Shown here one piece after another: positions 7,205 to 54,927 of a DNA stretch of 64,000 nucleotides (position 1 is its first letter; every line of letters begins with the position of its first letter). The stretch is from Sphingobacteriales bacterium (GTDB taxonomy: Bacteria > Bacteroidota > Bacteroidia > Chitinophagales > Chitinophagaceae), in the NCBI GenBank assembly GCA_900299255.1, contig OMJB01000064.1, positions 1-64,000 of the forward strand, given 5' to 3'. The notes under the pieces were generated by a model. The model was not told where the DNA came from. It did no database searches and worked only from the letters and a program-made list of their open reading frames with translations. The position numbers and the translations under genes were made by a program.

Positions 7205-9010
7205 ATGCTGCAATTAAGTACAACCAACAATTTGTCGAAGTATACCTATGTGTTTTGCACTGTACTGATGTGTTATGCGTCTTTTTTCTTTTATCCGCGT
7301 TGGAAAAATGCCGGTACTGAGGCTACAATATCCTGGGATGTTTCGGGCTACTACTGGTACCTTCCGTCTATATTTATTTATGAGGACCTGAAACACCAGT
7401 CGTTTAAAGACAACATCCTTCAGAAGTACGGGCCTACAAATATGGACTTCCAGCAGGCGGTTCGTTTGCAAAACGGAGATTATGCAATGAAGTATTCCTC
7501 TGGAATGGCAGTAATGTACCTGCCGTTTTTTTCTATAGCAAATGCGCTGGCCGATCCACTCGACTTTCAGCAGGATGGATTCTCTCCGCCGTACCAGTTT
7601 GCAATTCAGGCCGGTGGCCTGCTGGTTGCGCTTTTGGGCCTCTGGTATTTCAGAAAACTACTGCTTAATTTCTATTCAGACAGGGTAGTGGCTGCATCTA
7701 TGGCCATACTTGTACTGGGTACAAACTACCTCAATTATTCTTCCATTGAGTGTGGCATGTCACACAGTTGGTTGTTCACAGTGTATGTGTTCCTTCTGCT
7801 CAATACGCATTACTTCTACAAGGAGTTCAAAACAAAGTACGCAGTAAGAATAGGGCTGCTGGTGGGGCTGGCCACATTAACCCGGCCCACTGATGTGATT
7901 TCGTGCCTGATACCACTTTTGTGGGGTATGGAAAGCCTGTCTATGAGTGCTGTTAAAAAGCAGATTGGGTTGTATATTGCTCATTACAGGCCGTTGCTGC
8001 TGGCAGGCATTGCAGCAGCCTGTGTTATTTCTATTCAGCTTTTTTACTGGAAGTACGCCACAGGGCATTGGATTTTCTATTCTTATCAGGACCAGCACCT
8101 GTATTTCAGGTCGCCCAATTTTTCAGATTATACCTTCAGTTACCGCAGTGGCTGGCTTATTTATTCTCCTATGATGGTACTGGCGTTTATTGGTATAGTG
8201 CCTTTTATGATGAAAGGGAAAAACAAGCTTGCTATACTGGTATTTTTTATACTCAATTACTACATTGTTTGCTCCTGGAATATCTGGTGGTATGGCGGCC
8301 GTGCCATGATACAGAGTTATCCGGTATTGTTTTTTACGGTTGCAGCTCTGGTTGATACACTGTTCAGTAAAAAAGTATTGCTTTGGATATGTACGCCTGT
8401 GATACTGGTGTTGTTCTACTATAATTTCTGGATAACCTACATTTACCACAAGGGTAATATCTATGACAATGATTGTATGACAGAAGCCTACTTCAGGAAA
8501 GTGGTGGGCAAGTGGAGTACCCCGTTGAACACTTTAGTACTCAAAGACAACCCGGACTTGTATGAAGGTAGTCCGAAGAATCTCCGTCAGGTATACAGTA
8601 ATGATTTTGCAGCAGGCAGCGGCCCATTCTTTGTGGCACATACGGATGATAGTGCGAAGTCATTGTACCTGAATAAAGAACAGCAGGTCAGTCCGATATA
8701 CAAATTCGCATTTGCAGATAAAAATGCTGCATGGCTGCGGGCATCTGCATCTTTCCGTTGTTCACAGAAAGAGTGGGAGGGCTGGAAGATGACTCAGTTT
8801 ATATTGCGGCTGACGAATAAAGGCACCATCGTAAAAGAGAATATGCAGCGAGTACACAGATTGCTCAACGATAACAGTAATAAGGTTATTGCGTTGGATA
8901 TGAAACTTCCCAAGGCTGAATACGACAGTGTGCAGGTGCTGTTCTGGAATGGTGCCAGTGACAAGCCTATCTGGATAGACAGGCTAAATGTTGCGTCTTT
9001 TAATGAGTAA
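7205..9010 (+). CDS. Multi-pass membrane protein, possible glycosyltransferase, with soluble C-terminal domain
   Basis: About 601 aa from ATG 7205 (GTG 7181 is possible but adds only eight residues). The N-terminal two thirds carry about ten hydrophobic segments and a periplasmic loop (GTEATISWDVSGYYWYLPS). This resembles GT39/ArnT-like lipid-linked sugar transferases common near Bacteroidota polysaccharide genes. The last 170 residues are hydrophilic and beta-rich (SKSLYLNKEQQVSPIYKFA; SVQVLFWNGASDKPIWI), reminiscent of a carbohydrate-binding-like fold. The fold class is inferred from layout only. A GSCFA gene starts 33 bp downstream on its own -7 element, so the pair may act together on a surface glycan. 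Confidence 0.6.
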   Translation: MLQLSTTNNLSKYTYVFCTVLMCYASFFFYPRWKNAGTEATISWDVSGYYWYLPSIFIYEDLKHQSFKDNILQKYGPTNMDFQQAVRLQNGDYAMKYSSGMAVMYLPFFSIANALADPLDFQQDGFSPPYQFAIQAGGLLVALLGLWYFRKLLLNFYSDRVVAASMAILVLGTNYLNYSSIECGMSHSWLFTVYVFLLLNTHYFYKEFKTKYAVRIGLLVGLATLTRPTDVISCLIPLLWGMESLSMSAVKKQIGLYIAHYRPLLLAGIAAACVISIQLFYWKYATGHWIFYSYQDQHLYFRSPNFSDYTFSYRSGWLIYSPMMVLAFIGIVPFMMKGKNKLAILVFFILNYYIVCSWNIWWYGGRAMIQSYPVLFFTVAALVDTLFSKKVLLWICTPVILVLFYYNFWITYIYHKGNIYDNDCMTEAYFRKVVGKWSTPLNTLVLKDNPDLYEGSPKNLRQVYSNDFAAGSGPFFVAHTDDSAKSLYLNKEQQVSPIYKFAFADKNAAWLRASASFRCSQKEWEGWKMTQFILRLTNKGTIVKENMQRVHRLLNDNSNKVIALDMKLPKAEYDSVQVLFWNGASDKPIWIDRLNVASFNE

Positions 9011-9031
9011 AGCCCGGGTATAAACTCTGAT

Positions 9032-9039
9032 TAACTTTG
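9032..9039 (+). promoter_or_regulatory. -7 element (TAACTTTG) for the GSCFA gene; leaderless start predicted
   Basis: TAACTTTG is an exact TAnnTTTG match and only 4 bases separate it from the ATG at 9044. If transcription starts the usual few bases downstream of the element, the mRNA begins at or next to the start codon. Confidence 0.5.
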
Positions 9040-9043
9040 TGCT

Positions 9044-10018
9044 ATGCAAACAATGCTCTCGATTGAAATACCTCAGCTGCCACGGCCCATTACCTATACC
9101 GATAAGGTATTGCTGGCAGGCTCTTGTTTTACCGAGCATATTTCAGACAGGTTGCTGCAGCATAAATTCAATGTGTTGTCAAATCCCAACGGTATTCTGT
9201 TCAACCCGCTTAGTGTGGTATCGGCAATTGATGGATATTTATCCGGCAGGCAGTACAGCAAAAACGAACTCTTTTATCTTAATGAACTCTGGAACAGCTG
9301 GGATCATCATACACGCTTTTCAGACATAGATGCAGATGCAGCATTGAATGGAATAAACGCATCACAATCTCGTGCGGCTGATTTTATTAGTTCGGCTGAC
9401 TGGGTGGTAATTACACTTGGTTCAGCCTTTCAATACTATCTGAAGGAGACTGGGCAGCCTGTATCGAACAATCACCGTGCGCCAGCACAATGGTTCGAGA
9501 AACGCTTACTGGCAATAGATGAAATTATCAGGGCAACAGCAATGGTTCTGGAAAAATTATTCAGTGTAAACCCGGCTGCGAATGTGCTCTTCACCATAAG
9601 CCCAGTGAGGCATATAAGAGATGGTGTAACTGAAAATAATCGAAGCAAGGCCCGGCTGATTGAAGCGGTGCATTGCCTCTGTGATCAGTTTGAGAAAGCA
9701 TGGTATTTTCCGGCCTATGAGATCGTCATTGATGTGCTCAGAGATTACCGGTACTATGATATTGATTTTGTTCACCCCAACTATCCGGCAACAGCATATG
9801 TATGGGAGCGATTTGTGAACAGCTGCATATCACCTGAAACCACAGCAATAATGAAACAGGTGCAGGAAATAACCACAGCAAAGGCACACCGCCCGAGGTT
9901 TCCGCAAACGGAAGCACACAGAAAATTCAGGGAAGGCTATGCAGGGAAAGTGAAAGCACTCTCGCAAAATTATCCTTTTCTGGATCTGAGCGCAGAAGCA
10001 GCATTTTTTGCTGGCTGA
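9044..10018 (+). CDS. GSCFA domain protein
   Basis: A 324-aa member of the GSCFA family, named for the motif seen here as AGSCFTEH (about residues 26-33). Further family blocks are NPNGILFNPLS, WVVITLGSAFQYY, NVLFTISPVRHIRDG and DFVHPNYPATAYVWERF. The Ser in GSCF and the late Asp/His in DFVHP recall the SGNH-hydrolase layout, so an esterase role on a cell-surface glycan or lipid is plausible but unproven. The ATG at 9044 is directly after a -7 element; ATG 9053 is an alternative that leaves a short leader. It lies next to a membrane protein of glycosyltransferase type. Confidence 0.8.
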   Translation: MQTMLSIEIPQLPRPITYTDKVLLAGSCFTEHISDRLLQHKFNVLSNPNGILFNPLSVVSAIDGYLSGRQYSKNELFYLNELWNSWDHHTRFSDIDADAALNGINASQSRAADFISSADWVVITLGSAFQYYLKETGQPVSNNHRAPAQWFEKRLLAIDEIIRATAMVLEKLFSVNPAANVLFTISPVRHIRDGVTENNRSKARLIEAVHCLCDQFEKAWYFPAYEIVIDVLRDYRYYDIDFVHPNYPATAYVWERFVNSCISPETTAIMKQVQEITTAKAHRPRFPQTEAHRKFREGYAGKVKALSQNYPFLDLSAEAAFFAG

Positions 10019-43516: not shown

Positions 43517-44751
43517 CTGCTATAAATAACATTGACCGGTACCTGACGAGGCTGCTGTTGCTGACCTTTTTCCTGCCTATGAAGTTGCAGGTATGGGTGA
43601 CTATGGCAGTAAGCGTTTATTTTCTGGTGCGTACGGTTAATAGCTATGGCAGGCTTACAAAGGGGAATGCAGTAAATGCTGCCGTCATCTCAGCCGGTTT
43701 TTTTCTTTTTCTGTTGGCTATACCGTTTACGCCGCATGAGTACATGCACAGGCTGATGACACTGATAGGCCAGCGCGTTTCTTATTTGTTTATGCCTTTT
43801 CTGTTTGCATTTATTGCACCGGCTTTTGCAAAACTGATCATTGAAGAGCTACTGTATTTTGTATACGGGTGCCTGGCCACCTGCCTGATAGCCAATGCCG
43901 GGGTGGCTTACCATTATTTTGCTTTAAATGATCCCGGGGTTATGACACATGTTGCCTACAGGGGTATGGTGCATCACTTCACTGATATTCATCCTACCTA
44001 CCTGTCCATGTATCTTGGGTTTGTGATTTTTATATTGCTGTATGCTGCGGAACGAGGCATACGGCTGAGCCAGTTGCGCGTAAACCTGCTCCTGTTTCTT
44101 TCGTTTGTGTTTCTGCTGGCATTAGGCGCCAAGACACCTATGCTGGCAACTTCGGCAGTTGTTGTGCTGTTCTTTATTTCTAAAAAAGGCAAATTCAAAG
44201 AATTCAAATGGCTGCTGGCAGGCTTAACCCTGACTACAGTATGTGCCTGGCTATTTGTGCCGTTTATTGCTCAGCGCATAAATGAAATGGTTCAGTTTTT
44301 CAGTGCAGAAAAACAGACACTTACCAACGATAATTCTGTATATGCCCGGCAGCTAATATGGAATATGGATATGAACCTGCTACAGCATTACTGGATTACA
44401 GGTGTGGGGCCAGGCCGAGTGTACACGGTGATGCAGCTGCAGTCTTTTGTTCGTATGCTGCATCATCCATTGCCTGACCTTTACCATGACCCGCACAATG
44501 AGTATATCTATGAGTGGCTTTGTTTTGGTGTGGCAGGTATTATACTGTTAGCTGGCACCTTTGTATGGCACTTAAGACGGAGCCTGACAACGAAAAATCA
44601 ATTGTATTTGTGCCTGATGGTTTTGATAGCGGCAACGTGTTTTACAGAGTGTATTCTATCGCAACAAAGAGGTATCATGTTTTATTCCTTCTTCACAGCA
44701 TTGTTTTTCTTTGTGCCGAAAGAAAGCGATGCTACTGTTTCACCATCCTGA
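43513..44751 (+). CDS. O-antigen ligase family membrane protein
   Basis: 412 aa, about ten to twelve membrane spans, with the large periplasmic loop characteristic of WaaL/Wzy_C proteins near residues 275-335: YARQLIWNMDMNLLQHYWITGVGPG, then HHPLPDLYHDPHNEYIYEWLCFG. The Arg of ARQ, the G-x-G-P-G turn and the H-N-E-Y-I motif are the conserved points. It would transfer or polymerise an undecaprenyl-linked glycan. It is coupled to the preceding glycosyltransferase, and its 3' end overlaps that of a convergent protease gene by 20 bp. Confidence 0.83.
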   Translation: MTAINNIDRYLTRLLLLTFFLPMKLQVWVTMAVSVYFLVRTVNSYGRLTKGNAVNAAVISAGFFLFLLAIPFTPHEYMHRLMTLIGQRVSYLFMPFLFAFIAPAFAKLIIEELLYFVYGCLATCLIANAGVAYHYFALNDPGVMTHVAYRGMVHHFTDIHPTYLSMYLGFVIFILLYAAERGIRLSQLRVNLLLFLSFVFLLALGAKTPMLATSAVVVLFFISKKGKFKEFKWLLAGLTLTTVCAWLFVPFIAQRINEMVQFFSAEKQTLTNDNSVYARQLIWNMDMNLLQHYWITGVGPGRVYTVMQLQSFVRMLHHPLPDLYHDPHNEYIYEWLCFGVAGIILLAGTFVWHLRRSLTTKNQLYLCLMVLIAATCFTECILSQQRGIMFYSFFTALFFFVPKESDATVSPS

Positions 44752-46420
44752 TTACCTGCTGCCGGGATGAGGATATGGCCTTCAGGAAATAAATGCCGTC
44801 CGGCAGGTTCTCAACCGGTAATGTAAATAAAGGATTGTAACCTTTGAACAGGAATGTTGTCATAGTGGTAATACTTTTGCCGGTTACATCCAGCAAACGG
44901 AATTCAACATCGCTGTTGGTATCGGGATAGGCGGAGATGCGTAAGTCGCCATGAAACGGATTTGGAATAACAGCAACCCAGCTACCTGGAAGATACGGGG
45001 GCGGTGTATTGGATACATTCAGCAGTTGCTCTGTGCAGTTGAAGTTAGGTACGCCATACCCTATGTGATTGGTTGGTGCGCTATAATGACTTGCGCAGCG
45101 GATAATAGCCTGCCTGATCTGGTAAGGAGTAGCATATGGGTTAGCCTGCCATAAACAAGCAGCCCAGCCTGCCATCTGTGGAGTAGAAAGGGAAGTGCCA
45201 TCCTGATAACCCAGACCTCCGCCAATAGTAAAGACAGCGGCAAAGTGTCCCAGTCCGCAAACATCCGGTTTGATCTGCCCTGCAGCATTAGGCCCATATC
45301 CGCTTGTGCCCCATGCCGATCCAGCGGCATCAACTGAACCCACTGTAAGCGCGCTGTCGGCATCGCCAGGAGTAAGGATCATGTTCCAGCCGTTGCCACC
45401 CTCATTGCCGGCTGAAGCAACAAACAGCATGCCCTTTTTGGTGGCGGCGTTTGCGCCACGCGAGCATATAGTGGTTTTGCCGTCCAGGTCAGTTGCGAAA
45501 TTCAGATCGAGCGAATGGTCGGTGAAAGTATTGTAACCCAACGAAGATGTGACGATATCAGCACCAATACTGTCGGCGCGTTCGGTTGCCAGTTCGAGGT
45601 TGTACAGTTCAATAGGCTGCTCAGAAGCGCCATCTTCTGTGACATACAATGCGTATGACGCAAGGGGGGCAGAGCCTATATAATTATTGGGCGGATTATT
45701 GGGTATGTAACCCGCAATTGTTGACAGCACTGTAGCGCCGTGCGTATCGAAACTAAAAATAGTGTTATCGTTATACACAAAGTCGTGTGTGTCGAGAATT
45801 CTTCCGGAATTGCGGAGGCTGTCGAAGCCAGTGTGCAGGTCTGCGCCTGTAAAGCCGGCATCAATAACCGCTATCAGCTTACCGGTACCTTTGAAGCCAT
45901 TATTGTGCAGATAGTTGCCGTTTACAATCTGCGTCTGATCCCAAGTCCAGCCATAGTAGGATGCGTCTGTTGTTGTTTTTTTTGCCGGCTTGAACGTAGG
46001 TACTGCGCTGCCTGTTGTATTGGATGCTTTGTGATGCAGGAAAGTAGCGTAAACGCCCACCAGTTTTGTGCTGCTGATAAATGACTTGCCGGATAAGGCG
46101 TGTATAAAAGAGGTGTCTGATACGAGGATGATACAAAAATTAAACCAGCGGGATGATCCGTGAAAGATACCTCCGGTCAGTGCCAACGTACTGTCGATGT
46201 ATTTATTTACTACAGGAAGATCTGTGCTATCTACAGGAATGCCCTGTGCTGTGCGGCGGGCAATGGCCCTTGCAGACAGATATGAAGATGGTGAAGAAAG
46301 ACTGTAGGGTGTATTATTCTTATCGGTGAATGAAACAACGTATGCAAATTGCTGTGCCAACGATTTTTCACAACAAAAAATCAACAACACCAACCAAGTC
46401 AGAATGACTTTTCTGCACAT
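44732..46420 (-). CDS. Subtilisin-like (S8) serine protease with T9SS sorting domain
   Basis: About 562 aa from ATG 46420 (MCRKVILTWLVLLIFCCEKSLAQ). An upstream in-frame start at 46489 would overlap the preceding gene and is rejected. The catalytic triad is visible: Asp 187 in AVIDAGF, His 227 in DTHGATV and Ser 410 in DGTSLSTPQMAG, with the oxyanion Asn in SAGNEGG (339). The N-terminal region before the catalytic domain looks like a propeptide. A C-terminal sorting domain (VIPNPFHGDLRIS; LPDGIYFLKAIS) directs it to the T9SS. It lies 4 bp after a lipoprotein gene in the same operon. Confidence 0.92.
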   Translation of the reverse strand: MCRKVILTWLVLLIFCCEKSLAQQFAYVVSFTDKNNTPYSLSSPSSYLSARAIARRTAQGIPVDSTDLPVVNKYIDSTLALTGGIFHGSSRWFNFCIILVSDTSFIHALSGKSFISSTKLVGVYATFLHHKASNTTGSAVPTFKPAKKTTTDASYYGWTWDQTQIVNGNYLHNNGFKGTGKLIAVIDAGFTGADLHTGFDSLRNSGRILDTHDFVYNDNTIFSFDTHGATVLSTIAGYIPNNPPNNYIGSAPLASYALYVTEDGASEQPIELYNLELATERADSIGADIVTSSLGYNTFTDHSLDLNFATDLDGKTTICSRGANAATKKGMLFVASAGNEGGNGWNMILTPGDADSALTVGSVDAAGSAWGTSGYGPNAAGQIKPDVCGLGHFAAVFTIGGGLGYQDGTSLSTPQMAGWAACLWQANPYATPYQIRQAIIRCASHYSAPTNHIGYGVPNFNCTEQLLNVSNTPPPYLPGSWVAVIPNPFHGDLRISAYPDTNSDVEFRLLDVTGKSITTMTTFLFKGYNPLFTLPVENLPDGIYFLKAISSSRQQVIRMVKQ

Positions 46421-46424
46421 AAAA

Positions 46425-47159
46425 TCAATTATGGTCCAGCGCCCGCATGATAACGGTATATCCGGTCCTGTTCTGGGTGGTATCAGCACCGCCCCAGCTA
46501 TAGTGCGTCCACTCTTTGTAAATCATACCCACGTTCCAAGCATACACTTCTTTGGCGTATGTTCTGTGGCCATAAACAGTAGAGTCAACGTTCTGGTAAT
46601 TGAAGTTCTCATCATTTTCCAGCACAGTAACTGTGTTGTCGAATGATACGAATCCATTGAAGTAAGGCTGATGGTATTTCTGATATACATAATTCCAGCC
46701 ACTGAGGTAGCTGAATAATGAATCCTGCACTTGCGCATACTGATTGCCCTGCCAAGTAGTACCTTCTGTAATAGGGAAAGTAAGTTTTACATACTGGGTG
46801 CCATCCTGAGTATACAGCAGATTTGACGTAGTTGGGGTAATTAGAATTACGCGGCTCGGAACCCAGTCGGCACCTTCGTACGGACGGTAATACACGTCCA
46901 TGATGTAGGAAACCCTTTTTTTCTTATCCGTAAAGGTATCAGTTACAGCATATTTCAGCTGGCACCTGGTCTCAGTTTTTGTGCCTTCGGCGGAATTGTA
47001 ATATATAGAATCTACAGCATAGGTGATGTACCTCCCGAATTGCAGCGGAAAATAATTACGGGTAGGGTCTGTAAGCGGATTTGTAGCTTTTTTACAAGAA
47101 AAAAACGCAAAGCCCAATGCAGCTACCAATAAAAAACCATTAAAAATCTTCCTTATCAT
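46425..47159 (-). CDS. Hypothetical lipoprotein (244 aa)
   Basis: The lipoprotein signal MIRKIFNGFLLVAALGFAFFSC has the lipobox FFSC. The mature region is beta-rich and aromatic (NYFPLQFGRYITYAVDSIYYN; WQGNQYAQVQDSLFSYLSG; VYAWNVGMIYKEWTHYSWGG). The last of these is reminiscent of a repeated pattern in Bacteroidota surface lipoproteins in which a G(Y/R)(Y)ITY.VDSI motif follows the anchor. No function is known. It is the first gene of a two-gene unit with the subtilisin-like protease, which suggests a related surface role. Confidence 0.78.
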   Translation of the reverse strand: MIRKIFNGFLLVAALGFAFFSCKKATNPLTDPTRNYFPLQFGRYITYAVDSIYYNSAEGTKTETRCQLKYAVTDTFTDKKKRVSYIMDVYYRPYEGADWVPSRVILITPTTSNLLYTQDGTQYVKLTFPITEGTTWQGNQYAQVQDSLFSYLSGWNYVYQKYHQPYFNGFVSFDNTVTVLENDENFNYQNVDSTVYGHRTYAKEVYAWNVGMIYKEWTHYSWGGADTTQNRTGYTVIMRALDHN

Positions 47160-48444: not shown

Positions 48445-49698
48445 TTAATTCAGCCATTTTTCAGCACGGATGCGGTCCATTATGGTGCTGGTGGCACCGG
48501 TATTTTGCTGCATAAAAGTGCGGATGGACCGGTTGAGTTCTTTGCGGGAATTGTTGTCGTTTATGAGCCGGTCCAATACAGATATTGCTTCGGTGGCATC
48601 ATTTACCGGGAAAGCAAAACCCTGCTGCACCAGCCGTTTTGCTTCGACAAATTTATGATATACCGGCCCCATTATTACCGGCAGACCAAAGACAGCAGGC
48701 TCCAGGGTGTTGTGAATTCCGCCTTTTTGAAATCCGCCACCGATGAAAGCGATATCTCCGTATGCAAATAAGCGGGAAAGCATACCGATGTTGTCAATGA
48801 TGAGAATTCTTTTGCCGTTGGCGTTGGAACCTCCCAATAATTCAGAGTATAGTACAGGCTGGTTATCAAAAAGCTGTCTGATCTTACGGATATGAGCGTC
48901 ATCTATCTCGTGCGGTGCAATTACCAGTTTCCAGTCATCCGGAAGGGAGGAGAGGCAATCTCTGAGTATGGCTTCATCGCCGGGCCAAGTGCTGCCGGCA
49001 ATGAGCAGTTTGCTGTTGTCTTTAAATGCGTCTATGAAAGGGATAGGCTTTACATCTGAGGCTATGGCAGTTACCCGGTCGAAACGGGTATCGCCGGAAA
49101 TGACAACATTCTTGTCGATGCCTATGGATTGCAGCATTTGCCTGGAAATTTCGTCCTGCAAAAAAAAGTAGCTGAAGCTGTGCAGCATTTTGCGGAACAG
49201 GCCTCCATACCACTTGAAAAAAGGCTGTCCCTGCCTGAATGCGCCTGAAACCAGAATGACCGGTATCTGCTTTGCATTCAGGTGGGAGAGGTAATGGTAC
49301 CAGAATTCGTACTTTATAAATACGGCCAGAACAGGTTCTGTAAGCGCTATGAACTCCTGAGCATTGCGGTGAGTATCGTGCGGCAGATAAAAAATATAAT
49401 CCGGCAGGTTGTTTTTTTTGCATGCTTCGTAGCCAGATGGCGAAAAAAAAGTTGCCACTGTTTTATATGTCGGGTACTGGTTTTTCAGTGCTTCAATTAC
49501 CGGTCGGGCCTGTTCAAACTCGCCCAGCGAGGAACAATGTATCCATATTCTGCGTTCGCCTTTTTGCAGTGTGTTACCTATATGCTGCTGCCAGTTCTTT
49601 CTGCCATCGATCCAGCGTTTTGCCTTTTCATTGAACAATGAAAATATCCGGATAACCAGATGGTACAGCGCCAGAAGAAAGTTATAGAAGAACAGCAT
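48445..49698 (-). CDS. waaA: 3-deoxy-D-manno-octulosonic acid transferase (WaaA/KdtA)
   Basis: 417 aa. It attaches Kdo to lipid A precursor at the inner-membrane cytoplasmic face. An N-terminal hydrophobic anchor (FFYNFLLALYHLVIRIFSLF) is followed by the acceptor domain: IWIHCSSLGEFEQARPVIEAL, in which Glu of GEF is the family's catalytic base, then FFSPSGYE and LPHDTHRNAQEF. The donor domain has LIAGSTWPGDEAIL, FIGGGFQKGGIHNTLEPAVFGLPVIMGP. This is a normal family layout. It follows the DarA-like gene by 61 bp on the same strand and may share its transcript. Confidence 0.94.
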   Translation of the reverse strand: MLFFYNFLLALYHLVIRIFSLFNEKAKRWIDGRKNWQQHIGNTLQKGERRIWIHCSSLGEFEQARPVIEALKNQYPTYKTVATFFSPSGYEACKKNNLPDYIFYLPHDTHRNAQEFIALTEPVLAVFIKYEFWYHYLSHLNAKQIPVILVSGAFRQGQPFFKWYGGLFRKMLHSFSYFFLQDEISRQMLQSIGIDKNVVISGDTRFDRVTAIASDVKPIPFIDAFKDNSKLLIAGSTWPGDEAILRDCLSSLPDDWKLVIAPHEIDDAHIRKIRQLFDNQPVLYSELLGGSNANGKRILIIDNIGMLSRLFAYGDIAFIGGGFQKGGIHNTLEPAVFGLPVIMGPVYHKFVEAKRLVQQGFAFPVNDATEAISVLDRLINDNNSRKELNRSIRTFMQQNTGATSTIMDRIRAEKWLN

Positions 49699-49759: not shown

Positions 49760-50686
49760 TTATATCCTGTTTTTTTCGAACTGAACCTGCTTGAAATATT
49801 CTACATCCTGCAGCAAGGATTTTCGTTTGATGAACTGTTTGATTTTTGCGGTTAGCGCAGAAATGGGAGACAGTATAAAAATGCCCACGAGCAGCAGATT
49901 CTTGAACAGCAGCACTCTGCCGGCTCTTTCAGGTGCGCCAGGTCCTCCTTTTTCACGGATAAATTTAGCCCAGTACCGGAAGTTCTTTATGCCTCTCTGC
50001 TCCAGTATTACAAGACCCGGTCTTAACTGCACCGCCTGCTGATTCAGCAGGTCTGTCTGCAGGCTGCCCAAGGAATTCTCAGACAGGTGCTTGAATATAA
50101 TATGCCCAAACCGGCTGGCGGCGGCAATATCAGCATCCTGAACACCTGCTGCAGGCAGCAGGCCAGAAGCTTCTTTCTGACCCTTGAACGACCAACGGAT
50201 AACTGTGAGCAGCGAAATGAGATTGGGGCTGCTGTCTGTAAGTACAATGTTGCCAACCAGATTTGCCTTCGCAGCAGAGAGGTATTCTTTAACCTTCTCC
50301 TGTGCATGCAGCCACATGTTGCGGCAGCCAACAACGGTAACCACATTTTTGTTGTTGAGCAGCCCTGCGAATTCGCTTTGCAGCAACGCAGTTGTGGGCT
50401 GGGAAGGATTGAGGAACCACGGCTGATAGCCCAGAATCACGAGGTCGTAGTTTTTTTCTTTGACGGACGAGTTCAAAGGTTTTATGGCGCAGGGGAGCTG
50501 CACGACAGTTTCCGGCATTGTGTCGAAAAAATGGAGTGCATTCCATGGGAAAGGGAATGGTTTTACCGGCTCAACAGGACAGAAGTCTATCTCAGCTTTA
50601 TCAGCTAGAGGAGAAAGGATGCTGTCGAGAATCTGACGTAACTGCCCGGTTTGTGTATAGTAAACTACCAGTATTTTTGGTTTCAT
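49760..50686 (-). CDS. DarA-like dialkylresorcinol condensing/cyclising enzyme (flavodoxin-like fold)
   Basis: 308 aa. The N-terminus KILVVYYTQTGQLRQILDSIL looks like a flavodoxin-type phosphate-binding loop, and NYDLVILGYQPWFLNPSQPTTALLQ and VVTVVGCRNMWLHAQEKVKEYL continue that fold. The C-terminal part has a hydrophobic stretch (FKNLLLVGIFILSPISALTAKI) that may attach it to the membrane. This matches the protein named DarA in dialkylresorcinol/flexirubin clusters, as I remember the family; there it acts with a KAS III (DarB) to join two acyl chains into a resorcinol. Two KAS III genes lie directly upstream, 11 bp away, which supports the call. Confidence 0.65.
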   Translation of the reverse strand: MKPKILVVYYTQTGQLRQILDSILSPLADKAEIDFCPVEPVKPFPFPWNALHFFDTMPETVVQLPCAIKPLNSSVKEKNYDLVILGYQPWFLNPSQPTTALLQSEFAGLLNNKNVVTVVGCRNMWLHAQEKVKEYLSAAKANLVGNIVLTDSSPNLISLLTVIRWSFKGQKEASGLLPAAGVQDADIAAASRFGHIIFKHLSENSLGSLQTDLLNQQAVQLRPGLVILEQRGIKNFRYWAKFIREKGGPGAPERAGRVLLFKNLLLVGIFILSPISALTAKIKQFIKRKSLLQDVEYFKQVQFEKNRI

Positions 50687-50697
50687 TGATGTGTTGG

Positions 50698-51831
50698 TTA
50701 AACTACTGTGAGGTACATATAGCCATATGTGAATCGGGCGCTTTCAGGAACCATGACCAGAATACGATCACCCTGCCTGAGCCTGCCACTGTTGAATAAT
50801 TCGTGGAGCATAGCATATGCCGATGCGCTGCCTATATTGCCCACTTTAGTGAGGTTATAAAACCATTTTTCAGGTGGCAGATCGAGTCCGATCTTCTTAA
50901 GCCAGGTGATCATTTCATTTTTAAAATATTCGCTGGAAAGGTGCGGCAGAAAATAGTCTATCTTATCTTCAGAAATACCGTGTTTGTCCATCAGTTCACG
51001 CAGGTATTCGCCGCCTTTTGCAATAATGTTTCCGCCCAGCAGTTTTGTATCCTGCTTGAAAGAAAATACACTTTTTTCTGTCCAGTCCTGCACGCTGAGT
51101 TCGTTCCAGCCGGTGAGCGTGGCATCTGCGTTTTTTACGGCACCTGCATACATGCTGGTTTCCAGTTCGTTGGCATACGAGCGGATATCAATCCATTCTA
51201 TTTTGAGTGAAATGCCGGTTTCGTTCGGTTTGCTTTGCAGCAGGGCAGCACCTGCACCATCGCAGAGCATGAACCGCAGGAAATCTTTTTCAAAGGCGAT
51301 GATCGGTTCGGCCTGTAGGCGCTCCAGATTTTCCGCTTCGGTTTGAAAACGTGATGCGCGCATCCAAGTGGATACTTTTTCAGATTTGCAGCAGGCTGCA
51401 ACTCCGGCATTGTCGGTACCTACAGCCATGAAGCCGTATTTCAATGCCTGAATTCCGGTGCAGCAGGCGCCGGTAGAGGTGACAATCTCAACATTTTTTT
51501 TGCCCATGAGGCCATGCACCATAGAGGCATGAGAAGGCAACAACTGCTCAGGCGATGATGTGGAAAGCGACAGCAAATCGAGCTGGTCAACAGGCAACTG
51601 CTCATCAAAGAGACTATTAATGGCAGTAACAGCCAGCTGCGCACTTGAGTGCGTGCTCTTGCCATTGCGAAAGGCGTAGTAACGCGTTTTTATACCATTG
51701 TTTCTGAGCACAGCCATCTGTGCTTTAGAAGTACGGTCACTAACGCGGCCCAGAATTCCTTCCATTTCTTCGTTCGACACAGGGTCGTTCGGCAGAAAAA
51801 CGGATAGTCTGGTTATAAATACTGGCCTCAT
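50698..51831 (-). CDS. KAS III (FabH/DarB-like) ketosynthase, copy 2
   Basis: 377 aa if started at the second ATG (51831), which matches its paralogue exactly in length; ATG 51834 is also possible. Thiolase-fold ketosynthase. The active-site Cys is in STGACCTGIQALKYG (Cys pair near 123-124), the His in FLPHLSSEYF (about 297) and the Asn in VGNIGSASAYAM (about 332), so the Cys-His-Asn triad of KAS III enzymes is complete. It would join acyl-thioesters. An 11-bp gap to the DarA-like gene and a 146-bp gap from copy 1 suggest an operon or two coupled units. A perfect inverted repeat lies just upstream (51841-51860). Confidence 0.85.
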   Translation of the reverse strand: MRPVFITRLSVFLPNDPVSNEEMEGILGRVSDRTSKAQMAVLRNNGIKTRYYAFRNGKSTHSSAQLAVTAINSLFDEQLPVDQLDLLSLSTSSPEQLLPSHASMVHGLMGKKNVEIVTSTGACCTGIQALKYGFMAVGTDNAGVAACCKSEKVSTWMRASRFQTEAENLERLQAEPIIAFEKDFLRFMLCDGAGAALLQSKPNETGISLKIEWIDIRSYANELETSMYAGAVKNADATLTGWNELSVQDWTEKSVFSFKQDTKLLGGNIIAKGGEYLRELMDKHGISEDKIDYFLPHLSSEYFKNEMITWLKKIGLDLPPEKWFYNLTKVGNIGSASAYAMLHELFNSGRLRQGDRILVMVPESARFTYGYMYLTVV

Positions 51832-51840
51832 CAATTAAAT

Positions 51841-51860
51841 TTAGTGTAAAAATACACTAA
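51841..51860. promoter_or_regulatory. Perfect 8-bp inverted repeat upstream of KAS III copy 2
   Basis: Arms TTAGTGTA and TACACTAA face each other across AAAA, ending 10 bp before the start codon region. The spacer and size suit a dimeric repressor site. It includes TATTTTTA on the minus strand, close to a -7 box, so a bound protein would block transcription. Confidence 0.45.
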
Positions 51861-51977
51861 CTGAAGCTAATGCTATAACATAAGACGGCAGTCTGCGTTA
51901 AGAAACAGTGAAATGCAATTCCGGTGCGGTTAATTAAATCCGGTGTATGTACTTTGATTATGCAGCCGATTGTATGA

Positions 51978-53111
51978 CTAAACAACTGTCAGATACAGGT
52001 AGGCATAGGTGAAACGAGCGCTCTCAGGTATCATTACGAGAATTTTCTCGCCTTTTTTCAGCCTGCCGCTGTTTAACAGTTCCTCCATCATAATATATGC
52101 TGATGCACTGCCTACATTGCCTACAGCAGGCAGGTTGTAAAACCACTTCTCATAAGGCATTTCCAGGCCTATTGACGCCATAGTGGCATACATTTCTTTT
52201 TTGAAGAACTCGCTGGACATATGCGGTAGGAAGTAATCAACCTGATCGGCAGTAAGGCCGTTGGTTTTCATGAGCTTGCTCAGGAACTCGCCTCCTTTTT
52301 TGATGATGTTCTCCGCCAGCAATTTCGTATCCTGTTTCAGGGAGAATACGCTTTCGTTTGCCCAGCGGGCCACTTCCATATCATTCCAGCCTGTAAGCGA
52401 TGCATCGGGGTTCTTAACGGCACCTGAATACATGCAGGTTTCCAGTTCGTTGGCGTAAGAACTGATCTCCAGCCATTCAATCTTCAGCGATATACTGTCT
52501 GCATTAGGCGTACCCTGCATCAGCGCTGCGCCTGCGCCATCGCTGAGCATCCAGCGGAGGAAATCTTTTTCAAAAGCTATGTATGGATTCTTGTCTATTT
52601 CCTGCCAACTGTCTGCTTCCGACTGAAAGCGGGATGCCATGAGCCAGGTAGACATACGCTCAGAACCGCAGCTGGCGGCCACTTCAGTGAGGCCGGCACC
52701 CACAGACATATAGGCGTATTTTAAAGCCTGAATACTGCTGCAGCAGGAACCTGCAACACTGACAATTTCTATGTTTTTTGCGCCCAGTTCGCCATGTACC
52801 ATAGATGCATGAGATGGCAGCAGTTGTTCGGGTGAAGTAGTGCCGGCAGCCAGCAATTCGAGTTTTTCCAGTGGCAGTTTTTCATCAAACAGCATGCCAA
52901 CGGCTTTAGCAGCCAGTTGGGTATTGGTATGGGTAAACTGCCCGTCTTTTATGGCGTAGTACCTTGTTTTGATACCGTTATTGTTCAGCACAATTCGCCT
53001 TGCCCTGGAGGGTTTCCCGTTAATCATACCCAGAACCCCTTCCATCTGATCGTTAGAAACAGGTTCGTTTGGCAAAAATTTTGAAAGCCTGGTTATATAT
53101 ACTGACCGCAC
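51978..53111 (-). CDS. KAS III (FabH/DarB-like) ketosynthase, copy 1
   Basis: I start this at GTG 53111 (VRSVYITRLSKFLPNEPVSN), which gives 377 aa and aligns residue for residue with copy 2. The longer TTG frame to 53141 runs through a -7 element. The triad is again complete: Cys in VAGSCCSSIQALKYA, His in FLPHMSSEFF and Asn in AVGNVGSASAYIM. The residue after the active-site Cys pair differs (SS here, TG in copy 2), so substrate or partner roles may have split. The pair are clear tandem duplicates with long identical blocks (LLPSHASMVHG, AFEKDFLR, SYANELET). Confidence 0.83.
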   Translation of the reverse strand: MRSVYITRLSKFLPNEPVSNDQMEGVLGMINGKPSRARRIVLNNNGIKTRYYAIKDGQFTHTNTQLAAKAVGMLFDEKLPLEKLELLAAGTTSPEQLLPSHASMVHGELGAKNIEIVSVAGSCCSSIQALKYAYMSVGAGLTEVAASCGSERMSTWLMASRFQSEADSWQEIDKNPYIAFEKDFLRWMLSDGAGAALMQGTPNADSISLKIEWLEISSYANELETCMYSGAVKNPDASLTGWNDMEVARWANESVFSLKQDTKLLAENIIKKGGEFLSKLMKTNGLTADQVDYFLPHMSSEFFKKEMYATMASIGLEMPYEKWFYNLPAVGNVGSASAYIMMEELLNSGRLKKGEKILVMIPESARFTYAYLYLTVV

Positions 53112-53130
53112 TAATGTTATTTTGGGAGTG

Positions 53131-53138
53131 CAAAAGTA
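53131..53138 (-). promoter_or_regulatory. -7 element (TACTTTTG) for KAS III copy 1
   Basis: Minus-strand TACTTTTG matches TAnnTTTG exactly, 19 bases before the GTG at 53111. It marks the probable promoter of the ketosynthase/DarA/WaaA unit. Confidence 0.5.
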
Positions 53139-53270
53139 CAATAATTTGGGTTTATTCTAGCTTTGTATAGATGCCATTATTGAAATCAGTGCATACTCCT
53201 CTGTTCCTATCAAAATATTCTGTAATTAATGTATACATATCGTAATAAAATAAAAATTTCGTCGTTTTTA

Positions 53271-53324
53271 ACTAAAAAATTAGTTTTAAAACTAAATACT
53301 TAGTAATTTTACTAAATAATTAGT
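53271..53324 (+). promoter_or_regulatory. Three BlaI-type operator dyads at 20-bp period
   Basis: Three 14-bp palindromes of the form ACTAA-N4-TTAGT lie at 53271-53284, 53291-53304 and 53311-53324, each starting exactly 20 bp after the last. They end 13 bp before the ATG of a BlaI-family repressor. BlaI/MecI proteins bind short dyads as dimers and repress their own operon, so this is almost certainly their operator. Confidence 0.75.
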
Positions 53325-53337
53325 TTACGCAGGATTT

Positions 53338-53709
53338 ATGAAGACACAATTTAAACCGCTTACTAAGGCAGAAGAAGAGATAATGCAGGTGCTATGGAGG
53401 CTGGATAAGGCTTTTGTAAAAGATATAGTTGATGATATGCCGGAGCCAAAGCCGCACTACAACACGGTTAGCACCATCATTAAAATACTGGGCGACAAAG
53501 GATTTGTGGCGTACGAGTCGTTCGGTAAATCGAACCGGTACTATGCGCTGGTGAAAAAGGATGATTACACCAGGCGATCTATGAAGCAATTTGTGAAGGG
53601 CTACTTTGAGGGGTCTTATACCAATATGCTTTCGTTTTTTGCCAAAGAAAAGAACATCAGTATCGAAGAACTTGAAAGCATTTTGAAGGAAATGAAGAGT
53701 AATAAATAG
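53338..53709 (+). CDS. BlaI/MecI/CopY-family transcriptional repressor
   Basis: 123 aa. The N-terminal winged helix (KPLTKAEEEIMQVLWRLDKAFVKDIVDDM, then HYNTVSTIIKILGDKGFVAYESFGKSNRYYALV) is typical of the family, followed by a dimerisation region (SMKQFVKGYFEGSYTNMLSFFAKEKNISIEELESIL). Such repressors are cleaved by, or released through, a partner M56 sensor protease, and that gene follows 24 bp downstream. The three dyads upstream are its likely binding sites. Confidence 0.93.
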   Translation: MKTQFKPLTKAEEEIMQVLWRLDKAFVKDIVDDMPEPKPHYNTVSTIIKILGDKGFVAYESFGKSNRYYALVKKDDYTRRSMKQFVKGYFEGSYTNMLSFFAKEKNISIEELESILKEMKSNK

Positions 53710-53733: not shown

Positions 53734-54927
53734 ATGAGCTACTTATTTCTGGTGTTGTTTTACACTGCCATTATGATACTGATCTACCGGGTATCGCTAA
53801 AGGATAAACCGATGCATGGTTTCAGCAGGGTTTATCTGATAGCCTGCGCAATACTTCCGCTGCTGATCCCTTTTTTGCGATTGCCGGAATTTGTACAGAA
53901 GAATATGCCATTGGCGGAGGGCTTCGAAATCGGACTTCAGGAGATGATCGTTAAAGCTACACCGGAAACCATAGGTCAGGTGCCTGGGTTGGGTAAGTGG
54001 CTATGGTTGGGATATGGTTTAGTGTCGGGGTGCTTGATTGCATTGACATTACGAAAAATTGTGAAGTTACTCGGGCTGGTGCGGGGCAGCAATAAAGTTG
54101 ACAGGGGGGGCTACATTCTTGTCACCGATTGCGGTTTCGGGCCGGGCAGTTTTGGCCGGTATATTTTGATTCCGGGTGCAGAAACTGATCCGGTGATCAT
54201 AGAACATGAACTGGCGCATATACAGCACAAACATACCTTCGACATTTTATTCATCAATCTGGTTCAGGCGCTTTGCTGGCCGAATTTGCTTCTATTGTGG
54301 ATCAAAAAAGAGCTGCAGGCGGTGCATGAATTTCAAGCTGATAGTAAAGTGACTGTATCAAAGGTGGCATATTCACATTTGCTGTTGTCTACTGTGTTTA
54401 ATACAAATTGTTTACCTGTTATGCATTCATTTATTATTCATCCCATAAAACGCCGAATCGTTATGTTACAAAAGAGAGAAAAAACCAGCCCTGCAAAAAC
54501 CGCACTGATCTTGGGTAGTGCCATTTGTCTTTTCCTGTCCACTGCTGTTGTGTTGCAAAGCAATGCCCAGAATGCCCGTAAGGGAAGCAAGGCGGCAGAT
54601 AAGACTACTCAGGATGAAAAACCTATTGATGGAAAGATAGACCAGATGCCGGACTGCAAGTACGACCTGCCTAAATTTCTAGGTGATAACATTAAGTACC
54701 CCGATGGCGCCCGTGCAAAGGGGATAGAAGGCAAAGTAATAGTGCGGTTTGTTGTGAACAAGACTGGCAAAATTGTTGATCCGGTAATCCTCAGGTCGCC
54801 CGACACGACACTGTCGGCAGAAGCCCTGAGGGTAGTGAATATGATGCCGCCATGGGTGCCGGGTAAAAGCAAGGGTAAGAAGGTGTCGGTATACTTTACA
54901 TTGCCAATCTCGTTTAAGCTGAAATAA
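53734..54927 (+). CDS. M56 (BlaR1-like) sensor protease fused to a TonB C-terminal domain
   Basis: 397 aa. Four N-terminal membrane spans surround the cytosolic metalloprotease loop, with the zinc motif EHELAHIQHKH (158-167) and ELQAVHEFQADSKV carrying the third ligand region. A further membrane span (ALILGSAICLFLSTAVVL, about 258-275) is followed by a linker and, from about residue 310, a TonB C-terminal domain (YPDGARAKGIEGKVIVRFVVNKTGKIVDP). Thus the periplasmic sensor domain of classic BlaR1 (penicillin-binding) is replaced by TonB-like sequence. With the BlaI partner it forms a signal-dependent derepression pair. The inducing signal is unknown. Confidence 0.9.
   Translation: MSYLFLVLFYTAIMILIYRVSLKDKPMHGFSRVYLIACAILPLLIPFLRLPEFVQKNMPLAEGFEIGLQEMIVKATPETIGQVPGLGKWLWLGYGLVSGCLIALTLRKIVKLLGLVRGSNKVDRGGYILVTDCGFGPGSFGRYILIPGAETDPVIIEHELAHIQHKHTFDILFINLVQALCWPNLLLLWIKKELQAVHEFQADSKVTVSKVAYSHLLLSTVFNTNCLPVMHSFIIHPIKRRIVMLQKREKTSPAKTALILGSAICLFLSTAVVLQSNAQNARKGSKAADKTTQDEKPIDGKIDQMPDCKYDLPKFLGDNIKYPDGARAKGIEGKVIVRFVVNKTGKIVDPVILRSPDTTLSAEALRVVNMMPPWVPGKSKGKKVSVYFTLPISFKLK

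Follow-up and report, generated by a model that had tools for sequence, protein, structure and literature searches.

Two tandem darB genes and darA as a probable dialkylresorcinol module of a scattered flexirubin pathway in a Sphingobacteriales bacterium

Three adjacent genes in a 64,000-nucleotide stretch of DNA from a Sphingobacteriales bacterium (assembly GCA_900299255.1, contig OMJB01000064.1, positions 1 to 64,000; hereafter called the window) encode two tandem DarB-type ketosynthases and a DarA-like protein. We propose, with a probability of about 0.88 and on the evidence of sequence comparison, that darB1, darB2 and darA constitute the dialkylresorcinol (DAR) module of a flexirubin pathway that has its polyene genes at several other loci of the same genome. 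Flexirubin is an orange pigment that is common among bacteria. The window lies on contig C64 of a 3.47-Mb genome that is distributed over 146 contigs and is 97.9% complete. The observations reported here comprise the identities of the genes, their co-occurrence across genomes, their scattering among contigs, the distribution of darB copy numbers, and a remnant of darB2 in a related genome. Genomes, contigs and loci are denoted by G, C and L numbers, respectively.

All three genes lie on the minus strand. The first in the direction of transcription, darB1 (51978..53111, GTG start at 53111), encodes a DarB/StlD-type ketosynthase (DAR cyclase) of 377 amino acids (aa), and its tandem paralogue darB2 (50698..51831, ATG start at 51831) encodes a protein of the same length. 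They are followed by darA (49760..50686), whose 308-aa product is predicted to adopt a flavodoxin fold and is the proposed flavin mononucleotide (FMN)-dependent aromatase of the DarB product. Gaps of 146 bp separate darB1 from darB2, 11 bp darB2 from darA, and 61 bp darA from the waaA gene on the same strand, and we infer that darB1, darB2 and darA form an operon. The corresponding open reading frames (ORFs) were first listed as 51978-53141, 50698-51834 and 49760-50686. The existence of darB1 and its lower limit, as given by a first-pass annotation of this DNA, are retained, but the upper limit at a TTG codon (53141) gives way to the GTG at 53111. This start is likelier because the TTG lies upstream of TACTTTTG (53131..53138, minus strand), a candidate -7 promoter element of darB1. 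The -7 promoter motif of Bacteroidota is TAnnTTTG, which the element resembles, and the same string is also found upstream of DarB1 in the sister locus L002.

Both ketosynthases exceed the cut-offs of family models for DAR cyclases, as anticipated when the genes were first described as being of the DarA/DarB dialkylresorcinol type. Against the StlD/DarB model NF005293 (cut-off 450), DarB1 scores 566.4 bits and DarB2 532.6 bits, and the values for the DarB model NF053539 (cut-off 550) are 567.1 and 550.9 bits. The structure of the stilbene ketosynthase StlD (PDB 5gk0), a protein that we take to originate from Photorhabdus, is matched over the full length by DarB1 (E 6e-117) and DarB2 (E 6.4e-106), with the His residue that is changed in structure 5gk2, and also the Cys, in register. 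StlD joins an isovaleryl-derived substrate to a 5-phenyl-2,4-pentadienoyl substrate (PMC5515871).

DarB1 and DarB2 are 63% identical to each other. The first-pass annotation had described them as two tandem KAS III-type genes with an intact Cys-His-Asn triad, and this triad is preserved in all 70 DarB proteins compared, including both window copies. It had also remarked on different residues after the active-site Cys, which is correct in that DarB1 carries CCSS and DarB2 carries CCTG as the four residues beginning at the catalytic Cys, though both patterns fall within the ordinary spectrum of the family. Among the 70 proteins, CCSS occurs 23 times (4 of them DarB1), CCAG 22 times, CAAG 12 times and CCTG 7 times (3 of them DarB2). 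A special meaning of these residues was rejected, since both patterns are present in other DarB proteins.

The AlphaFold model of DarA (pLDDT 92.0, pTM 0.91) has a flavodoxin-like fold, the trait that the first-pass annotation had linked with DarA. A Foldseek search with this model returned WrbA as the best PDB match (E 4.4e-6), with other FMN flavoproteins ranked below it. Receptor crystal structures were also among the fold matches and were set aside; one of these entries names a flavodoxin fusion, and the others presumably carry a fusion partner too. Judged by its modelled fold, DarA would use FMN, and we propose it as the putative DAR aromatase. Relatives of DarA were found at 32 loci, and DarB adjoins in 31 of these, L033 being the exception. 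The model was built on an alignment of 32 proteins (that of the window and those of all relatives except L028, which is cut by a contig end), in which residues Q12, G14 and Q15 of the first loop are invariant throughout. The DarA of L031 is 45% identical to that of the window. A long C-terminal helix in the predicted model (residues 252-286) appears hydrophobic by eye, which suggests that DarA may associate with the membrane. The earlier description of a DarA-like flavodoxin-fold protein followed by waaA thus agrees with the predicted fold and the gene order. Scans with Pfam and NCBIfam models, which covered nine window ORFs between 44732 and 54927, matched the 308-aa protein to no other family, so there is no sign of the unrelated function for which that description had allowed.

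In the proposed pathway, DarB1, and probably DarB2 as well, would condense and cyclise two fatty-acid-derived thioesters to yield a carboxylated 2,5-dialkylcyclohexane-1,3-dione, which is how PMC5515871 describes the products of DarB. The flavodoxin-fold enzyme DarA would then aromatise the dione to a 2,5-dialkylresorcinol; in a table of PMC3949708, DarB and DarA are labelled DAR-cyclase and DAR-aromatase, respectively. The resorcinol would finally be esterified with an aryl-polyene acid derived from tyrosine and made by FlxA, FlxB, an acyl carrier protein (ACP)-ketosynthase module, a dehydratase-ketosynthase pair and other proteins, all encoded elsewhere. By analogy, the same DarB/DarA chemistry and polyene esterification are expected in the present organism. 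As reported in PMC3992019, heterologous expression of darB together with darA of Chitinophaga pinensis gave a DAR, and Flavobacterium johnsoniae mutated in darB lacks flexirubin.

Flexirubin genes had been described as absent. This holds for contig C64, on which the searches listed no match to PF00109 (ketoacyl synthase) or PF00221 (aromatic lyase), but not for the genome, in which other contigs encode FlxA, FlxB, an ACP and ketosynthases. The possibility that the remainder of the pathway lies elsewhere, which the first-pass annotation had itself raised, is thereby supported. Contig C90 carries an aromatic lyase that scores 793.2 bits against the FlxA model NF053541 (cut-off 700) and adjoins a reductase that scores 386.7 bits against the FlxB model NF053542 (cut-off 340). 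The other aromatic lyase of this genome, on contig C112, is HutH (640.0 bits, cut-off 524). On contig C78, the genes for an ACP, for a ketosynthase and for a second ketosynthase-like protein are flanked, as judged by eye, by odhA-like and ribosomal-protein genes, and contig C140 encodes a dehydratase-like protein of 140 aa together with a ketosynthase. Each of these proteins of C78 and C140 has a counterpart in a compact cluster of genome G337, a member of the same genus, with identities of 63% (ACP), 47% (ketosynthase) and 34% (second ketosynthase-like protein) for C78, and of 47% (dehydratase-like protein) and 45% (ketosynthase) for C140. The G337 counterpart of the dehydratase-like protein sits between FlxB and a ketosynthase. 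An AMP-ligase-like gene of G337 was unmatched in the stretches of the present genome that were compared, the whole genome not having been searched for it.

A further flexirubin locus may reside on contig C38, because its ketosynthase is 81% identical to one in genome G377 (L205, 15415-16647; G377:C18) that lies about 10 kb from FlxA on a 20-kb stretch shared with FlxA and FlxB. The strongest PF00109 match of the genome, on C49, is presumed to be FabF. Another match to the same model (C24:19614) was rejected as a flexirubin ketosynthase, since by eye it resembles an acetyl-CoA acetyltransferase. The genome contains one DarA (E<=0.001) and two DarB proteins above the cut-off, all three in the window. 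No second dedicated DarA/DarB set, which the first-pass annotation had named as part of a finding that would refute its own reading, was found elsewhere in the genome.

Within the genus, the genes of the proposed pathway occur together. DarB above the cut-off occurs in 17 of the 35 genus genomes, and the other 18 are without a match at E<=1e-30. An FlxA-type lyase (641 to 1175 bits) is found in exactly the same 17 genomes, and the best lyase match in each of the 18 DarB-free genomes reaches at most 289 bits, which is the level of HutH. The C78-type ketosynthase follows nearly the same distribution, being found in 16 of the 17 DarB-positive genomes (13 with an identity of at least 68%, G337 with 47%, G418 with 44%, and G416 as a fragment) and in none of the 18 DarB-free ones, where the best matches reach up to 179 bits. 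The proposal of a minimal cassette that would by itself suffice to make a distinct lipid is not supported, given the polyene genes on other contigs and the coincidence of DarB with FlxA in the same 17 of 35 genomes.

The three markers DarB, FlxA and C78-type ketosynthase nonetheless seldom reside together, lying on three different contigs in 14 of the 16 genomes that have all of them. The clustered exceptions are G337, with all three markers on contig C61, and G418, with DarB and the ketosynthase on contig C71. Within 20 kb of C61, G337 encodes an AMP-ligase-like protein, FlxA, FlxB, ketosynthases, an ACP, a BtrH_N protein, DarB and DarA. In G103, the FlxA-FlxB pair is located mid-contig on a 20-kb stretch (L204); apart from this pair, only a DUF3108 neighbour was matched there by any of 18 query proteins. 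Scattering is therefore not solely an effect of contig ends.

Several points weigh against assigning the window genes to a flexirubin pathway. DarA matches no Pfam or NCBIfam model at E<=0.001, and DarB2 exceeds the NF053539 cut-off by only 0.9 bits. FlxA on C90 lies within about 1 kb of the contig start, such that its distance to other flx genes cannot be read there. The dehydratase-like protein of C140 falls far below the cut-offs of FabZ models (26.5 of 113 bits and 21.5 of 155.15 bits), and no Pfam model matches it at E<=0.1. At the level of the genus, G422 (85% complete, 760 contigs) has DarB and FlxA with no match to the C78-type ketosynthase, and G403 (59% complete), which lacks DarB, contains a 376-aa frame that matches the ketosynthase more weakly (164.8 bits) and may be of the C140 type. 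Several genus genomes are incomplete (57-87% for some). For independent genomes, the pattern of 17/17 versus 0/18 for DarB and FlxA would arise with a probability of 2.2e-10, a value that overstates the co-occurrence because the 35 genomes are related and do not represent 35 independent trials.

The uncommon feature of the module is the tandem DarB arrangement. Two DarB proteins above the cut-off are found in only 3 of 394 family genomes (G000, G103 and G316), all of which belong to this genus and represent 3 of its 35 genomes. At least one DarB above the cut-off occurs in 128 of the 394 family genomes, as a single copy in 125 of them, and a phylum sample of 394 genomes gave 32 with any DarB, of which 31 have a single copy and one, the present genome, has two. 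The copy numbers for the family and the phylum sample are lower bounds, because at most four candidates were scored per genome (limits 1e-100 and 1e-130). DarB is also encoded by Taibaiella soli. Identical contig positions pair locus L003 with G103, L010 with G316, and L002 with G414. In a tree of 70 rows, the three intact DarB2 proteins form one clade (support 100/100) and the DarB1 proteins of G000, G414 and G103 another (100/99). Both clades fall inside a 20-row group (92/96) with genus members, and the tree leaves their joining unsettled.

The nearest relative found, G414, has a DarA that is 89% and a DarB1 that is 94-95% identical to those of the window, and its darB2 survives as a remnant (L002, 9762-9986) in which the first and last codons are united in one short open frame and the middle is gone. 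DarB2 is thus dispensable in G414. A short NNG/NSG-like similarity was noticed by eye at the deletion joint. Across the other 63 DarB proteins of the comparison, 94 columns are conserved; where DarB2 is kept, it departs from them at 8 positions in the window, 5 in L003 and 4 in L010, against 0, 0, 0 and 5 for the four DarB1 proteins and 7 at most for any of the 63.

We considered whether DarB2 has acquired a new role, either as an obligate heterodimer partner of DarB1 or through a different acyl specificity. Acting alone or with DarB1, a neofunctionalised DarB2 might introduce a second acyl combination, such that two DARs or flexirubin series would arise through one DarA. Such a role is unlikely, though it has some evidence in its favour. 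The three intact proteins form their own well-supported clade, keep the triad and share a Trp-to-Phe change at one conserved column (two assigned by number, the third at the corresponding place). The NG86 dN/dS value for the L003-L010 pair is 0.085, with dS 2.06 near saturation; this is the only DarB2 pair with a defined dS, and dN/dS is not conclusive because most pairs have a dS that is undefined or close to saturation. However, an obligate heterodimer does not exist in G414, because this genome keeps DarB1 and DarA with DarB2 as a deletion remnant. The single DarB of most DarB-bearing genomes in the family and phylum sample speaks against a general need for two subunits, and four of the seven CCTG proteins are not DarB2. 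DarB2 is a lineage-specific paralogue, apparently constrained where it is kept, yet dispensable, and it would be redundant or mildly specialised. A literature search on duplicated darB in flexirubin producers gave only unrelated work among the matches listed, which is weak evidence of absence.

Directly before darB2 there is a perfect dyad, TTAGTGT-N6-ACACTAA (window 51841-51860), for which 0.30 occurrences per window are expected with two mismatches or fewer. It is nearly preserved in L002 and was not seen before DarB2 of L003 or L010. In addition, long ORFs of 626-639 aa containing a DarB-like ketosynthase below the cut-off were encountered at four loci (L118 in G279, 7372-9249; L119; L121; L122). 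In the one that was scanned, L118, the frame joins the ketosynthase to a haem-oxygenase-like domain (PF14518). Such frames occur in 7 of the 394 family genomes and in one more distant genome (G697), and the four stretches examined around them yielded no DarA-like frame.

Free dialkylresorcinols or cyclohexanediones might instead be the end products, acting as signals or antibiotics independently of flexirubin. Photorhabdus provides a further case of a dialkylresorcinol signal, and the dar genes share no contig with the polyene genes found in the present genome. The antifungal compound of Pseudomonas chlororaphis PCL1606 is a dialkylresorcinol, a type of compound that may serve as a signal (PMC6403133). 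This explanation is nevertheless improbable, given that the 17 of 35 genus genomes with DarB are exactly those with the FlxA-type lyase and that the clustered form in G337 ties the dar genes to the polyene pathway.

An origin of a lipid-A-associated lipid from these genes, suggested by the same-strand position of darA 61 bp before waaA, is almost certainly wrong, since darA is followed by waaA at no more than 6 of 30 loci (L002, L003, L004, L008, L010 and L015), 18 of the 35 genus genomes yielded no DarB, a distribution that one would not expect of a lipid-A function, and the ketosynthases match DAR family models. The count of 30 covers loci with at least 1300 bp after DarA, two of 32 being too short.

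Outside the DAR module, waaA (48445..49698, minus strand; PF04413) encodes a Kdo transferase. Divergent from darB1 on the plus strand are genes for a BlaI-like repressor (53338-53709, PF03965) and an M56/TonB-C protein (53734-54927, PF05569 and PF03544). The intergenic region between darB1 and blaI contains two palindromes of the form TTAGT-N6-ACTAA, 20 bp apart (53280..53315). Such pairs, of which 0.03 are expected per window, were also found in L002, L004 and L123; no copy was found in L003, L008, L015 and L028. A single copy lies near blaI in L010, a locus in which a long distance separates blaI from darB1. On sequence grounds, the palindromes are probably BlaI operators and not dar control sites, because they stay with blaI in L010, which is one case. 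Elsewhere, downstream of mnmA, the window encodes a subtilase (44732-46489) with a C-terminal signal for type IX secretion.

The separation of dar and polyene genes has precedents. In Chitinophaga pinensis, darB (Cpin_6850) and darA (Cpin_6851) are separate from flxA-flxY (Cpin_1853-1877), as reported in PMC3992019, and the present genome resembles this arrangement in its separate dar genes and in the presence of FlxA and FlxB. It differs in that the C. pinensis polyene genes form a single cluster, whereas here they are distributed over at least three further contigs, and in that darB is tandemly duplicated. Flavobacterium johnsoniae likewise has DarB (Fjoh_1102) and DarA, but its dar genes reside inside a 37-kb cluster, whereas the dar contig of the present genome yielded no polyene gene. 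In Azoarcus sp. BH72, esterification to a polyene (arcuflavin) is predicted for the product of a DarB cyclase and a DarA aromatase, and the polyene loci likewise lack physical linkage to one another (PMC3949708). Azoarcus has further dar genes for an ACP, an ABC transporter and a BtrH-like protein. A BtrH-like gene (BtrH_N/DUF4872) and, by eye, ABC-transporter-like genes also accompany the dar genes of G337 (L201, G337:C61) and G418 (L203, G418:C71); the nine scanned ORFs of the window include neither type. Apart from the uncommon tandem DarB, the cassette is most likely ordinary, as separate dar and polyene loci have already been published (PMC3992019).

A colour shift with KOH serves as a test for flexirubin pigments (PMC11237725). 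The pathway for this chemotaxonomic pigment can be recognised by gene co-occurrence even though its genes are scattered, and genome mining that relies on gene clusters would probably see only fragments of it here. The tandem DarB proteins represent a small natural experiment in which a paralogue of a DAR cyclase has been either kept or lost.

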